A stretch of 64,000 nucleotides of DNA from positions 4,530,501-4,594,500 of the forward strand of contig NZ_MDGR01000007.1 in the NCBI RefSeq assembly GCF_002742335.1, read 5' to 3'. The first letter of the stretch is position 1. Each line of letters opens with the position of its first letter. Of this stretch, positions 27,668 to 31,843 are shown one piece after another. The position numbers and the translations under genes were made by a program. Below the pieces are notes generated by a model. It saw only the letters and a program-made list of their open reading frames with translations. It was not told the DNA's origin and searched no databases. This DNA is from Reichenbachiella sp. 5M10. GTDB taxonomy: Bacteria; Bacteroidota; Bacteroidia; Cytophagales; Cyclobacteriaceae.

Positions 27668-30313
27668 TTAATGTCTTATAATCGTACCAAAACTAGAATA
27701 GCCAGGGTTCACGAATTTTACCACAAACGTACCCGAGTGGTGATTGCTCAAAACGTCATTGATTTGCATCAGGGCTTGCTGGGGTGATACACCTGATAGC
27801 TGAAGCAAAAGGCTGCCTGTGATATCAACAAGCAAAACACTATACAGCCCTTCTGGCAAACCATCGATTGCAATTTCCTGACTGGATGGGTTGGGATAAA
27901 AATTTAGGCGCTTTAGAAGGGTTGTTGTTTTGGATTTGGTCACGTGGACAGTCGGACTAAAATCATACTTCCCATCAAAGTCTACTTGTTTCAACCTATA
28001 GTAGGCAGAATTCCCAAAATCAGAGTCGACAAATTGATAGCTGCTGGCGATATTGATATTTCCATTGCCTTTTACAAATCCGATCTCCTCAAAATTTTGT
28101 CCGTCTATGCTCTTTTCAACATAGAAACCATCGTTTGAAATCTCAGAGCCCGTACGCCACTTGAGTAGCACATCTTTTTCATCATTATCAAGTGATGCGG
28201 TAAAAGAAACCCAATCTACTGGAAGTGACCCCTCGGTCGTATTGATAGCTCCTCCATTTTCGATGACCACATTGTCAGGCAAATCATCCAGGTTTCCTGG
28301 GGTGTCATTGTCAATAGATTCCGTGTCTATTTGTCCACCGTCTACGATCAGAGAACCAGAGGAAGTCTCTCCGATATCAATGTTGTTGCCCACTTCGAGC
28401 ACTCCATTTACTATGACAGTACCAGCCTCATCTATTCTGAGCTCATCATCTATGACAAATGTGCCTCCATCCAGGATAGTAAGGGTAGATCCCGTCATCA
28501 CATCTGCACCGCCATCTTCTACTATGACTGTGCCGCCCACTACTGTAAACGTCACTCCCGTCTCTAGATCAAACTCTCCATCTTGTCCATCTCCATCCAG
28601 CGTAAGGGTGCCACTCACCCAGCAGACATCTGCTTCTATTCTGACTGTATTGCCTATGTCGAGATAGCAATCTCCACAAAAGGTGCCTCCATTACTCAGG
28701 TCGTTTTCGTTGATAGGACAGCTATTTTCGGTGCATACGGTGGACTCGTCACAACTATCGTCTGCTACCGCCTCGCAAGTGTCCCCTCCAGCACAACCTG
28801 AAAATGTCCCTCCATCTCCGTCATCAAAATCGCCATCTACGTTGATGGTACCTGTACCAGTGATGGTGCTGCCAGGATCAGAACTCTCAAAGTCGACATC
28901 ATCATCTACATTGAGGGTACCGTCTACTATCACCGTGGCAGGCCCGTCATTTTCTAGGTCTCCTCCGTTGATGATGTTGACAGTGCCGCCCTCTTGTACG
29001 ACCAATACGGCTCCATCTGACATGTCTATGTCTTGCCCAGATGTAAGCGTGCCGCCATCCCTCACGACGACTGTTCCTTCATCTATTTCTACCCCTGTGC
29101 CACCGTTGCTGCCGGTAGTTACAGTCCCGCTGATGTCTACCTTGCCATCTGCATCTACTACCAATTCTTCGTCTACTTCGAAGATCGCCCCTGACAGTAC
29201 CAGTAGCGTGCCCTCCTGCACTTCCACATCTCCGTCCTCTATGGCGATAGAGCCTCCTACGACGGTCAACGTGGCTTCATCGACTATATTGAGATCTCCG
29301 TCTTCTATCACTAGATTGCCACTGACCCAGCAGACATCGTTTTCTATAGAAATATCATCGTCTATCGTACAATTGCCGCAAAATACGCCACCGGCCTCCA
29401 ATTCAGCCGCTGTAGGGCATCCACTCGGCGTACATGCTGTGCCTTCGCCACAGGTATAGGCTGGCTCTTCTGCTTCGCAGGCCCCCCCACTTCCGTCACA
29501 ATTTGAGAATTCCCCATTTTCCTCATCTGTAAAATCATTCTCCACGGTGATGGTCCCCGAACCTGTCAAAATGCTTGAGGGGTCAGTATCCTCTATGACT
29601 ACATCGTCAGCTACTGTCAGTGTACCATTGACAATGATGGTGGCCTGTGCCCCGTCATCATTGTCCTCGTTATCGTTTCCATCATTATTGCTCAAATCTC
29701 TATTTGCATCGGCACTGCCTCCCTCGTCAATCCTGAGTACACCATCGCCATATACATCGATGTTGTCTCCAGATTCTAGGCTGCCGCCATTCTTTACTAC
29801 GACTCTCCCTCCGTCTATTTCTATATCATCACCTGTCACAAAGTCCCCAGATATCGATACATCGCCAGTATCTTCTATGTAGGCAAAGTCGGCTACCTCC
29901 ATAGAAGAGCCAGCTTCCAATTCTAAATCACCAGACACAAAAATGTCGCGACCATTGTCAAGAACCTCTACCGCACCGCCGGACTCTACGGTGAGCGTGC
30001 CTCCATCTTCTATATAAAGATCTCCGTCATCCAGATCCAGTGTTGCCCCGTCTTGGATGGTGATGCTGCCATTATTCTCAATAATCACATCTCCGTCACC
30101 TCCATTGATGGTCAGCCTTCCGCTCGTCCAAATTACCGCACCGGTAATCTCTATTTCATCACCGACGTTTACCGTGCAGTCCCCACTAAAAACACCCCCA
30201 TTGGCCAAATCGTTTTTAGTGGGACACTGAGCAAACAGAGCGCTTGATGTCAAGCAGATAAAACAAATCAGGCTGATTGTATGCCTGAAGAAAGAAAAGA
30301 ATGAAATTCTCAT
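27668..30313 (-). CDS. Acidic repetitive surface protein with T9SS sorting domain
   Basis: An 881-residue exported protein. Signal peptide MRISFFSFFR to ALFAQ; then three blocks of about 230 residues, each opening with a Cys-rich lead (CPTKNDLANGGVFSGDC, CPTAAELEAGGVFCGNC, CPINENDLSNGGTFCGDC) and continuing in short Gly/Asp/Val strand-turn repeats such as SITIQDGATLDLDDGDLYIE, as in right-handed beta-helices. Then an interdomain region (PVDWVSFTASLDNDEKDVLL) and a T9SS C-terminal domain from LNFYPNPSSQ. Strongly acidic, no enzymatic motif; adhesin or matrix protein is likely. ATG at 30313 gives the best signal peptide; an upstream in-frame start at 30343 is possible. Confidence 0.85.
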   Translation of the reverse strand: MRISFFSFFRHTISLICFICLTSSALFAQCPTKNDLANGGVFSGDCTVNVGDEIEITGAVIWTSGRLTINGGDGDVIIENNGSITIQDGATLDLDDGDLYIEDGGTLTVESGGAVEVLDNGRDIFVSGDLELEAGSSMEVADFAYIEDTGDVSISGDFVTGDDIEIDGGRVVVKNGGSLESGDNIDVYGDGVLRIDEGGSADANRDLSNNDGNDNEDNDDGAQATIIVNGTLTVADDVVIEDTDPSSILTGSGTITVENDFTDEENGEFSNCDGSGGACEAEEPAYTCGEGTACTPSGCPTAAELEAGGVFCGNCTIDDDISIENDVCWVSGNLVIEDGDLNIVDEATLTVVGGSIAIEDGDVEVQEGTLLVLSGAIFEVDEELVVDADGKVDISGTVTTGSNGGTGVEIDEGTVVVRDGGTLTSGQDIDMSDGAVLVVQEGGTVNIINGGDLENDGPATVIVDGTLNVDDDVDFESSDPGSTITGTGTINVDGDFDDGDGGTFSGCAGGDTCEAVADDSCDESTVCTENSCPINENDLSNGGTFCGDCYLDIGNTVRIEADVCWVSGTLTLDGDGQDGEFDLETGVTFTVVGGTVIVEDGGADVMTGSTLTILDGGTFVIDDELRIDEAGTVIVNGVLEVGNNIDIGETSSGSLIVDGGQIDTESIDNDTPGNLDDLPDNVVIENGGAINTTEGSLPVDWVSFTASLDNDEKDVLLKWRTGSEISNDGFYVEKSIDGQNFEEIGFVKGNGNINIASSYQFVDSDFGNSAYYRLKQVDFDGKYDFSPTVHVTKSKTTTLLKRLNFYPNPSSQEIAIDGLPEGLYSVLLVDITGSLLLQLSGVSPQQALMQINDVLSNHHSGTFVVKFVNPGYSSFGTIIRH

Positions 30314-30604
30314 AGTTATGTTGAGTATAAATTTGTTTAGCACAATAGATCAACCATCCACCAATGTATGGGCAATAGTAGATACTTTACGTCCCTTACT
30401 GAGGGACATTGGCTAGTCTTCAAATCCAGTAAAATTTTCTAATAAAAACAATGATTGAATGCAACTGTGGAAGGGGAAGCATCTTAATCAATCATTCGAA
30501 TACGGGAGGACAAATATAGGGTTTCTTCTAGAAATTTGGCTCCTGTATAATATGCTTTTAACGCATGTTAATGCATAAGTAATTTGGGGGTAACGCACAT
30601 AAAT
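30314..30604. other. Intergenic leader of the acidic T9SS gene
   Basis: About 290 bp with no convincing gene. It must hold the promoter of the minus-strand T9SS gene. A small hairpin, GTCCCT-tactg-AGGGAC (30391-30407), and a weak inverted pair AATGATTG/CAATCATT are visible, but no clear -7/-33 boxes. Confidence 0.5.
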
Positions 30605-30691
30605 CTCTCCTGCCGTCGAGATGACATGATAGGCTAGCCTTGATTCTAGAGATTGTATGATTAGTAGATTGGATTGTTGAAGGGGCTAGGA
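30605..30691 (+). repeat. Repeat A, left copy
   Basis: An 87-bp sequence starting CTCTCCTGCCGTCGAGATGA and ending GAAGGGGCTAGGA. A second copy lies at 31468-31554 in the same orientation with five mismatches (about 94% identity). The GTCGAGATGACATG core is a variant of the GTCGAAATGACGAG core in repeat B. Left-most piece of the GIY-YIG repeat island. Confidence 0.9.
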
Positions 30692-30743
30692 GTTTCGGGA
30701 TAAGTAATTCCCTTCCTCAATATCCTAGTAAGCCCCCAAAAAT

Positions 30744-30944
30744 CACCGTCACTCTGACAGAGTAGAGAGGGCGTGAGTCCTGCGCTACGACGAGGAGTCT
30801 CATGCTCTGTTGGCAGAGTGGATTGGAAAGTGCAGTGCTATCCGAGCGAGATTTATCGTCGCGTGCTTGCCCATGGGACAATCATGCTCTGTCGAAATGA
30901 CGAGGGTACTTTGTTCGATCTGCCATTCTCGATATCTTTCATGG
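30744..30944 (+). repeat. Repeat B, left copy, leads into GIY-YIG gene
   Basis: A 201-bp sequence from CACCGTCACTCTGACAGAG to TTTCATGG. An ungapped second copy lies exactly 520 bp downstream (31264-31464) with 11 mismatches (about 94.5% identity). Its inner ends form an imperfect inverted repeat, CGTCACTCTGACAGAG (30748-30763) against CTCTGTCGAAATGACG (30888-30903), 13 of 16 positions pairing. The homology stops at the base before the GIY-YIG ATG, so this copy supplies the gene's 5' leader. Confidence 0.9.
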
Positions 30945-31238
30945 ATGATTCATGGAGGGGCAGTTTATTTTATGACCAATTCGCGCCACACTGTACTGTA
31001 CATAGGTGTGACATCAAATCTGATTGCTCGGGTACAGAAGCACAAAGGCAAGCTTTATCCCAAGAGCTTTACCGCTCGGTACAATGCCTTTAAACTGGTC
31101 TATTTCGAGGGCTTTCATAGCATAGAGGAGGCCATCGCTCGCGAAAAACAAATCAAGAAATACCGCAGAGAAAAGAAGGATGCTTTAGTCAACGAAATGA
31201 ACCCTGAGTGGAAGGATTTGTTCGATGCGTTAGAATAA
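30945..31238 (+). CDS. Small GIY-YIG nuclease
   Basis: A 97-residue single-domain GIY-YIG protein: MIHGGAVYFMTNS holds the GIY-like A6-V7-Y8, VLYIGVTS the Y19-I20-G21, then R29 and the E67 in IAREKQIKKYR, the expected catalytic Arg and metal-binding Glu. No DNA-binding or UvrC-type extra domain. This is the short UPF0213/URI-like class. A longer in-frame reading from 30810 is repeat sequence and rejected as coding. The gene sits precisely between two copies of repeat B, suggesting an association between nuclease and repeat. Standalone function of this class is unknown. Confidence 0.88.
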   Translation: MIHGGAVYFMTNSRHTVLYIGVTSNLIARVQKHKGKLYPKSFTARYNAFKLVYFEGFHSIEEAIAREKQIKKYRREKKDALVNEMNPEWKDLFDALE

Positions 31239-31263
31239 TCTTTTCATCACAGTCCGAAAATAC

Positions 31264-31464
31264 CACCGTCACTCCGAGAGAGTAGATGGGACGTGAGTCC
31301 TGCGCTACGACGAGGAGTCTCATGCTCTGGTGGCAGAGTGGATTGGAAAGTGCAGTGCTAGCCGAGCGAGATTTCTCGTCGCGTGCTTGCCCATGGGACA
31401 ATCATGCTCTGTCGAAATGACGAGGGCACTTTGTTCGATCTGCCATTCTCGACATCTATCATGG
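31264..31464 (+). repeat. Repeat B, right copy without gene
   Basis: Same 201-bp unit as 30744-30944, same orientation, 11 mismatches, no indels. Here the end of B is joined after three bases to repeat A instead of to a nuclease gene, so 31264-31554 is a compact gene-less B-A unit. Confidence 0.9.
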
Positions 31465-31467
31465 TAC

Positions 31468-31554
31468 CTCTCCTACCGTCGAGATGTCATGATAGGCTAG
31501 CCTTGATTCTAGAGATTGTGTGATTAGTAGATTGGATTGCTGAAGGGGATAGGA
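31468..31554 (+). repeat. Repeat A, right copy
   Basis: Second copy of the 87-bp repeat A, offset 863 bp from the first. It is followed by the small inverted repeat AGGAA-gtgaa-TTTCCT (31551-31567), which may mark the right boundary of the island. Confidence 0.88.
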
Positions 31555-31623
31555 AGTGAATTTCCTCTCTAGATTTACGATCTCAAAGCACCTCATAAAG
31601 CGACATCAAATAGCCCTCAAAAC

Positions 31624-31727
31624 AAACACGTGTGTTCGGTCTTCCAATCACGTGTGTTCGACCTTCCAATCACGTGTGTTTGGGGCTCGGAACACGTGTG
31701 TTTGATCGAGCAAACACACGTGATCGA
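31624..31727. repeat. 22-bp-phased CACGTG palindrome array 1
   Basis: Five CACGTG cores at 31627, 31649, 31671, 31693 and 31717, spaced 22, 22, 22 and 24 bp, each inside a TCACGTGTGTTyG-like unit; the last is inverted. Units 4 and 5 form a perfect hairpin: CACGTGTGTTTG (31693-31704), loop ATCGAG, CAAACACACGTG (31711-31722). It lies between the repeat island and the 3' end of the minus-strand glycosyltransferase gene. A second array of the same type is at 60318-60414. Spacing is about two helical turns, as for phased protein-binding sites; terminator or repeat-element roles are also possible. Confidence 0.85.
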
Positions 31728-31843
31728 AAAAGGAGGGATGAAAACCGCCTTCAAGCCTTGTAAGGAGGGTTTTTGCTGAGCTGGGATTCTCGATCGAGTC
31801 TTGCTGATAGAGCAACTATGCTTTGTCTACGTGACCAGACCGG

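Follow-up and report, generated by a model that had tools for sequence, protein, structure and literature searches.

A small GIY-YIG nuclease gene between direct copies of a CGTC-tagged, REP-like repeat in Reichenbachiella, and the setting of its relatives

Organization of the repeat-flanked locus

The window is the whole stretch of DNA that we analysed, 64,000 nucleotides from Reichenbachiella sp. 5M10, and it contains a short gene lying between two copies of a compound repeat. A sequence-only reading of this DNA had described the order A, gap, B, GIY-YIG gene, B' and A', with both repeat pairs in the same orientation, and repeat finding together with blastn bore out this layout, all copies being direct. 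The features are as follows.

30605-30691, plus strand: repeat A, left copy, 94.3% identical to A', with a REP end at its start
30731-30944, plus strand: repeat B, left copy with its 42-bp leader (30903-30944), 93.7% identical to B' over 207 bp
30747-30902, plus strand: palindromic core of B, tags located, CGTCACTCTGACAGAG ... CTCTGTCGAAATGACG
30945-31238, plus strand: small GIY-YIG nuclease gene, 97 aa (PF01541, AlphaFold model, Foldseek, pN/pS)
31251-31464, plus strand: repeat B', right copy with the repeated leader (31423-31464), 93.7% identical to B
31267-31422, plus strand: palindromic core of B', tags located, hairpin fold
31468-31554, plus strand: repeat A', right copy, 94.3% identical to A

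The blastn alignment of A with A' (94.3% over 87 bp, E 2e-33) agreed with the 94% read earlier, and B and B' are nearly identical as claimed, with the value being 93.7% over 207 bp (E 9e-88) instead of 94.5%. The repeat homology had been said to end right before the nuclease ATG; its last base is indeed 30944 and the ATG is at 30945. Since the frame, of which this is the first in-frame ATG, is open upstream from TTG 30810, ATG 30945 is only the likely start. The 42 bp between the B core and the ATG (30903-30944) recur 3' of the B' core (31423-31464).

The palindrome noticed in the repeats was located as a 156-bp core of B with a CGTCA tag at each end. Both cores (30747-30902 and 31267-31422) start with CGTCACT and finish with CTCTGTCGAAATGACG, and the tetranucleotide CGTC stands at the palindrome ends 30747, 30902, 31267 and 31422. 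The B' core (31265-31424) folded as a single long hairpin (DNA, -28.8 kcal/mol, z -1.86), with 8 of 200 shuffles equally good. A related REP end opens repeat A at 30613-30626, where the minus strand reads TGTCATCTCGACGG, and the first 22 bases of A have a 100% match in genome G008 and 95% matches in G003 and G060. An Rfam RNA inside the repeats was rejected, the one chance match (31622-31703) scoring 24.5 bits where the gathering cutoff is 86. Downstream of A', a CACGTGTGTT array with a 22-bp period and an inverted last copy occupies 31623-31732; it is kept in the sister genome G007 (L005 1852-1953) and is possibly a terminator or a protein-binding array.

The encoded protein is a conserved GIY-YIG domain

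The GIY-YIG identity of the encoded protein was confirmed by PF01541 at E 4.7e-15, using 30942-31238 as search input, and no NCBIfam model matched the 97-aa protein at E<=1e-3. The AlphaFold model, built from a 29-row alignment, has a mean pLDDT of 93.8. Its nearest solved structure is the UPF0213 protein BH0048 (PDB 1zg2; profile E 5.6e-7, Foldseek fold E 7e-4), followed by Slx1, HIGLE and then UvrC domains. As such, the fold is that of GIY-YIG proteins and the nuclease is not a tyrosine transposase of the IS200/IS605 type. In the 29-row alignment, Y8, Y19, G21, R29 and N86 do not vary in any row, and E67 hardly varies; we take these six to be the catalytic positions. Compared with the copy in the genus genome G004, the gene has a pN of 0.088 and a pS of 0.771, the latter past correction, and we therefore consider it to be under purifying selection. 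A role in anti-phage defence was discarded, as the best PADLOC match had an E of 0.0079.

Copies in the genus and descent of the locus

The genus set comprised eight genomes, G000 (the genome of the window) to G007. At E<=1e-3, the A/B unit had one match in its own genome, at the window locus, and B alone occurred there in two places, both at this locus. The B repeat was found twice in G000, twice in G007 and seven times in G004, with two of the seven at the gene, and was absent from the other five genomes at E<=0.01. When one mismatch was allowed, the tag was present in 4 places in G000 (all at the window locus), 3 in G007, 24 in G004 and 1 in G006, and in none in the remaining four genomes; 4 of the 24 tag ends in G004 are at the gene. 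The reversed tag pattern occurred in one place each in G000, G003 and G004. Apart from the one mismatched tag in G006, the B family is thus limited to the three of eight genomes that have the window locus. The five solo B copies of G004 lie hundreds of kilobases from its GIY-YIG places, and the four of them that entered the alignment share a left end in all four and a right end in three.

Classed by frame length, 19 small standalone GIY-YIG genes were found in the genus, 0 to 5 per genome, besides uvrC-length and 470-aa genes; G002 has a weak partial match alone, in a 185-aa frame. Four of the 19 are linked to tRNA genes (G007a, G001a, G004b and G005d). Among the 15 others, 14 have a direct repeat of at least 27 bp across the gene (shortest in G003a) and G007c has none, and at the uvrC and 470-aa loci of the genus no direct repeat crossed the gene (0 of 5). 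In G005, two copies form tandem 546-bp repeat-gene units that are 96% identical. Repeat-gene arrays of constant period were seen at 546 bp in G005 and at 317, 345, about 420 and 537 bp in four other genomes (loci L037, L048; L201; G219:C2, G210:C86, G235:C3).

The search of the whole genome and of relatives, with the mapping of empty sites, that the sequence-only reading had proposed returned neither repeats spread over many genomes devoid of the nuclease nor a nuclease fixed at one locus without repeats. Three sister genomes (G002, G003 and G005) retain the UbiA-GT2 neighbourhood with other genes inside and with neither the nuclease gene nor A/B, and the gene content of this interval differs between sister genomes. 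An 891-aa protein with internal repeats (27668-30343), 90% kept in G007, occupies the spot where sister genomes carry other UbiA-GT2 genes. The G004 gene copy has UbiA and PKS next to it, just as in the window, so that the G000 and G004 copies share descent and separate moves of the two to different sites are ruled out. In G007, the nearest sister, A-B and B'-A' enclose 1798 N at the place of the gene, so that B is seen and the gene hidden, and the locus is probably shared by descent with this genome as well. Considering this descent in G000, G004 and probably G007, no move is visible in the lineage.

Flanking repeats at related genes of the Bacteroidota

We scanned genome contigs with the genus alignment and obtained a related set of 79 loci out of the best 80 matches. 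Seventy loci had enough flank for a comparison of the two 600-bp flanks, and 46 of these showed a direct repeat between them; among shifted windows, 5 of 247 did. Because only 4 of 10 uvrC/470-aa loci beside a second set (below) had enough flank, with 0 of the 4 flanked, neighbouring ORFs of 100 aa or more in the same loci were chosen as the control. Of 68 related genes, 57 had flanking repeats, which at 44 included a direct one; for the neighbouring ORFs the figure was 5 of 141 at E<=1e-4 (2 of 25 among short ORFs of up to 150 aa). Since so few neighbouring ORFs have any flanking repeat, the bracketing is beyond chance. The most enriched hexamer in the 350-bp flanks was CGTCAT/ATGACG, counted 313 times against 22.9 expected and present at 75 of 79 loci, compared with 72 of 399 equally long windows from other parts of the loci. 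A single REP pattern tried for the REP number per genome was too narrow, reaching 14 of 89 genomes.

For the second set, we chose 40 phylum loci by hand among the first entries of a list ordered by E-value, skipping contig ends and tandem duplicates. Flanking repeats were found at 31 of 39 of these loci, 28 of them best in direct orientation; in the related set, 41 of 59 flank pairs were best direct and 18 best inverted. CGTCA, however, was at background in the second set, occurring at 17 of 40 loci with 0.97 per kb near the gene against 0.83 far from it, whereas TGTCAT/ATGACA was enriched 5.1-fold (71 times, 23 loci) and several of the repeats were tRNA pieces. One common tag for all small GIY-YIG genes therefore fails in these 40 loci: bracketing is general and the CGTC tag is tied to the subfamily of the window. 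Other small GIY-YIG genes form a second subfamily that adjoins tRNA genes, frequently with a partial copy of a tRNA at the opposite side (genus loci L034, L035, L045 and L055; phylum loci L208, L215, L216, L225, L227 and L231), and the neighbours of three of the four genus copies are conserved. A tRNA was within 150 bp at 6 of 40 second-set loci and at none of the 79 loci in the window's subfamily.

Agreement of repeat type with the protein tree

Repeats were typed by the bases after the tag in the flanks of 104 genes, namely the window, 79 contig loci, 8 genus copies and 16 loci from a plasmid collection. A type was assigned to 76 of the 104, and 28 were untyped. On the protein tree the types required 9 changes, compared with at least 26 in 500 shuffles, which, given the few columns and 48 open forks in the tree, we take as a strong match and not as a history. 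Within the 66 Bacteroidota rows alone there were 6 changes against at least 16 in shuffles. The repeat type of the window was present in 16 rows, all inside one clade of 24. In the genus, the window, G004d and G005e share one type and G001b, G003c and G006 another, along the protein clade, and host kinship is therefore not the whole cause.

Homologues in other phyla occupy REP-bearing and empty sites

In the plasmid collection, tblastn matched 33 records, of which 16 across genera were examined. Repeats in either orientation (E<=1e-3) flanked 12 of the 16 homologues and four had none; CGTCAT was near 9 of 16. The frame of L242 is open to 3897, so its downstream flank was sampled too far out. 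L243 (NZ_CP119140.1, 2.17 Mb) and L237 (NZ_AP026896.1, 4.94 Mb) are filed as plasmids, and their lengths suggest chromosomes.

In Azospirillum lipoferum 4B (L245 2851-3469), the gene and two CGTCATCCCCGC..GGGGATGACG dimers that enclose it are inserted into an operon, separating sufB from sufC. Among the matches listed, 11 other Azospirillum records cover sufB-sufC with a gap at the place of the gene, and the three that were aligned have neither gene nor REP at this site. In Sphingobium, the gene is situated between fnrL and a response regulator in seven records and absent in five. In the two gene-bearing records that were aligned, a pair of inverted REP halves surrounds the gene, and the copy of TomTYG73 has decayed by a one-base gap. 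Of the gene-less records, TomTYG74 and TomTYG64 each have a single CGTC palindrome at the site, and TomTYG72, TomTYG65 and S. herbicidovorans have none there. One Sphingobium site is thus seen in three states, REP-gene-REP, solo REP and neither. The flanks in Shinella were too divergent for boundaries to be placed between gene and no-gene records. The gene is missing from otherwise matching alleles in Sphingobium and Azospirillum, and at the window the comparison holds at the level of the neighbourhood only. The N. gonorrhoeae homologue (44% identity over 88 residues) is found amid dispersed CGTCATTCCCGC repeats, the strict 28-mer of which has 42 exact copies in that record. An Aeromonas record has one strict 28-base form, near the gene.

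Discussion

The gene in the window lies between two full direct repeat copies and related genes lie in a like setting; the repeat type shifts with the protein lineage, and solo repeats occur without the gene. On balance, we are inclined to read the locus as a REP-gene-REP cassette, in which a single-domain GIY-YIG nuclease would be paired with a cognate CGTC-tagged, REP-like repeat in the manner of RAYTs and REPs, with an unrelated enzyme. The RAYT comparison, made in the sequence-only reading, is apt because these repeats carry the CGTC tag, and REPs of that group had no known dedicated transposase in 2013. That reading also had the nuclease spreading with or maintaining the repeats; the association and the match between repeat type and protein speak for this, whereas no spread is seen within the window's own genome, where two B copies share one locus. 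The locus is a low-copy member of a wide and real pattern.

The association of enzyme and repeat is strong; from it we infer cutting and homing, and the following mechanism is proposed. The enzyme would recognise the hairpin of the REP, most probably as single-stranded DNA, and cut it, and a cut solo REP could then be repaired by copying from a REP-gene-REP locus. Since the gene has a REP to its left and another to its right, each of the broken ends would find homology, and the gene would be copied in so as to stand between two direct REPs. If these recombined with each other, the gene would be deleted and a solo REP left, and unequal exchange would give repeat-gene arrays. We hold such cut-and-repair to be the most likely route because it fits the direct order seen here as well as the solo, occupied and empty states.

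Several results stand against the cassette reading: CGTCA is at background in the second set, where TGTCA tags and tRNA pieces are found instead, 28 of 104 genes are untyped, 4 of 16 plasmid-collection homologues are unflanked and 18 of 59 pairs are best inverted. Simple homing into a REP accounts neither for the inverted REP halves of Sphingobium nor for the empty Azospirillum sites that hold no REP, and there is possibly more than one route.

Alternatively, the nuclease might serve its host by cutting REP-bearing single-stranded DNA, for example in DNA uptake, with the flanks being a local duplication. Neisseria Ssn is said to cut repeat-bearing single-stranded DNA, for instance during DNA uptake, and the 44% identity over 88 residues to the gonococcal homologue amid its dispersed repeats, the purifying selection and the tandem units, by which local duplication does happen, are all in keeping with such a role. 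We nevertheless regard it as unlikely: the patchy presence of the gene (0 to 5 copies in eight genus genomes), the empty sites and the decayed TomTYG73 copy look selfish, and the only targets found in the own genome are the two copies around the gene.

It is less likely still that a GIY-YIG element with these repeats as its ends moves whole as an autonomous transposon, solo repeats being its internally deleted derivatives. Flanks are direct here and mostly elsewhere (28 of 31 and 41 of 59 pairs), unlike the inverted ends of transposons, solo-REP states exist at an occupied site, and we know of no GIY-YIG enzyme that joins DNA, which we count against this explanation even though the Azospirillum insert consists of REP dimer, gene and REP dimer with neither in relatives, and the G004 solo copies have defined ends. 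That REPs simply collect in intergenic DNA near dispensable genes, the nuclease being unrelated, would suit the single A/B locus of the own genome and the variable UbiA-GT2 interval, but is very improbable considering that repeats flank 57 of 68 nuclease genes and just 5 of 141 neighbouring ORFs (2 of 25 in the range up to 150 aa), and that repeat type tracks the protein tree.

Extending the cassette reading, GIY-YIG nucleases may be the missing enzymes of CGTC REPs in several phyla, convergent with the RAYT/GTAG systems, co-diversifying with their hairpins and homing into REPs by cut-and-repair, and a sister subfamily may do likewise at tRNA genes. We offer this tentatively, as a conjecture somewhat more doubtful than plausible; the background level of the CGTC tag in the second set calls for caution with the cassette and this wider reading alike. 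If true, a partnership of REP and enzyme arose twice, with unrelated folds. As nuclease and repeat change together, the propagation of CGTC-tagged REPs becomes testable; many natural enzyme/hairpin pairs are supplied, and their specificity may be readable from the genome.

Comparison with known systems

The best solved match by profile and fold, the UPF0213 protein BH0048 (PDB 1zg2), has to our knowledge no repeat association. GIY-YIG homing endonucleases of the I-TevI kind share the nuclease fold and the presence or absence of the gene at one site in relatives; in contrast, the window gene has no intron or intein, and its target would be the repeat on both of its sides. The nuclease is probably Ssn-like. 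Ssn of Neisseria, reportedly described in a 2025 paper, is said to be a GIY-YIG nuclease specific for single-stranded DNA that acts at the repeat NTS and has many homologues. Both systems would pair a single-domain GIY-YIG protein with a cognate repeat among dispersed CGTC-type repeats, and the window differs in its repeat sequence, its direct bracketing copies, its low copy number and in the nuclease being putative. Since a link between a small GIY-YIG enzyme and dispersed repeats is reportedly in print for Ssn, the novelty of our proposal is limited. Our literature search, outside which most subscription papers lay, found no publication joining GIY-YIG genes with REPs or GIY-YIG with CGTC.

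A 2013 survey recognises two groups of REPs, the GTAG families, which are linked to RAYTs, and the CGTC families, which "apparently lack a dedicated transposase"; its excerpted text reports CGTC-tagged REPs from five phyla, with an unpaired tail that is mostly CCA, and leaves open the propagating agent, if any (PMC3733652). The repeats described here resemble these in the CGTC tag, the palindrome, the tags-outward dimers and the solo dispersed copies, and differ in size and number, the surveyed REPs being 20-40 bp and of high copy while the B core is 156 bp with two copies in its own genome (PMC3733652). Where the excerpts name no dedicated enzyme for the CGTC REPs, our data place a co-diversifying GIY-YIG nuclease (PMC3733652). 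As in the RAYT/REP systems (REPtrons), a small dedicated enzyme gene is flanked by repeats supposed to be its substrate, and a flanked gene and a dispersed repeat occur together, the repeat being dispersed in G004 and not in the window's genome. Unlike these systems, with their tyrosine transposase and GTAG tag, the present locus combines a GIY-YIG nuclease, a CGTC tag and direct copies.
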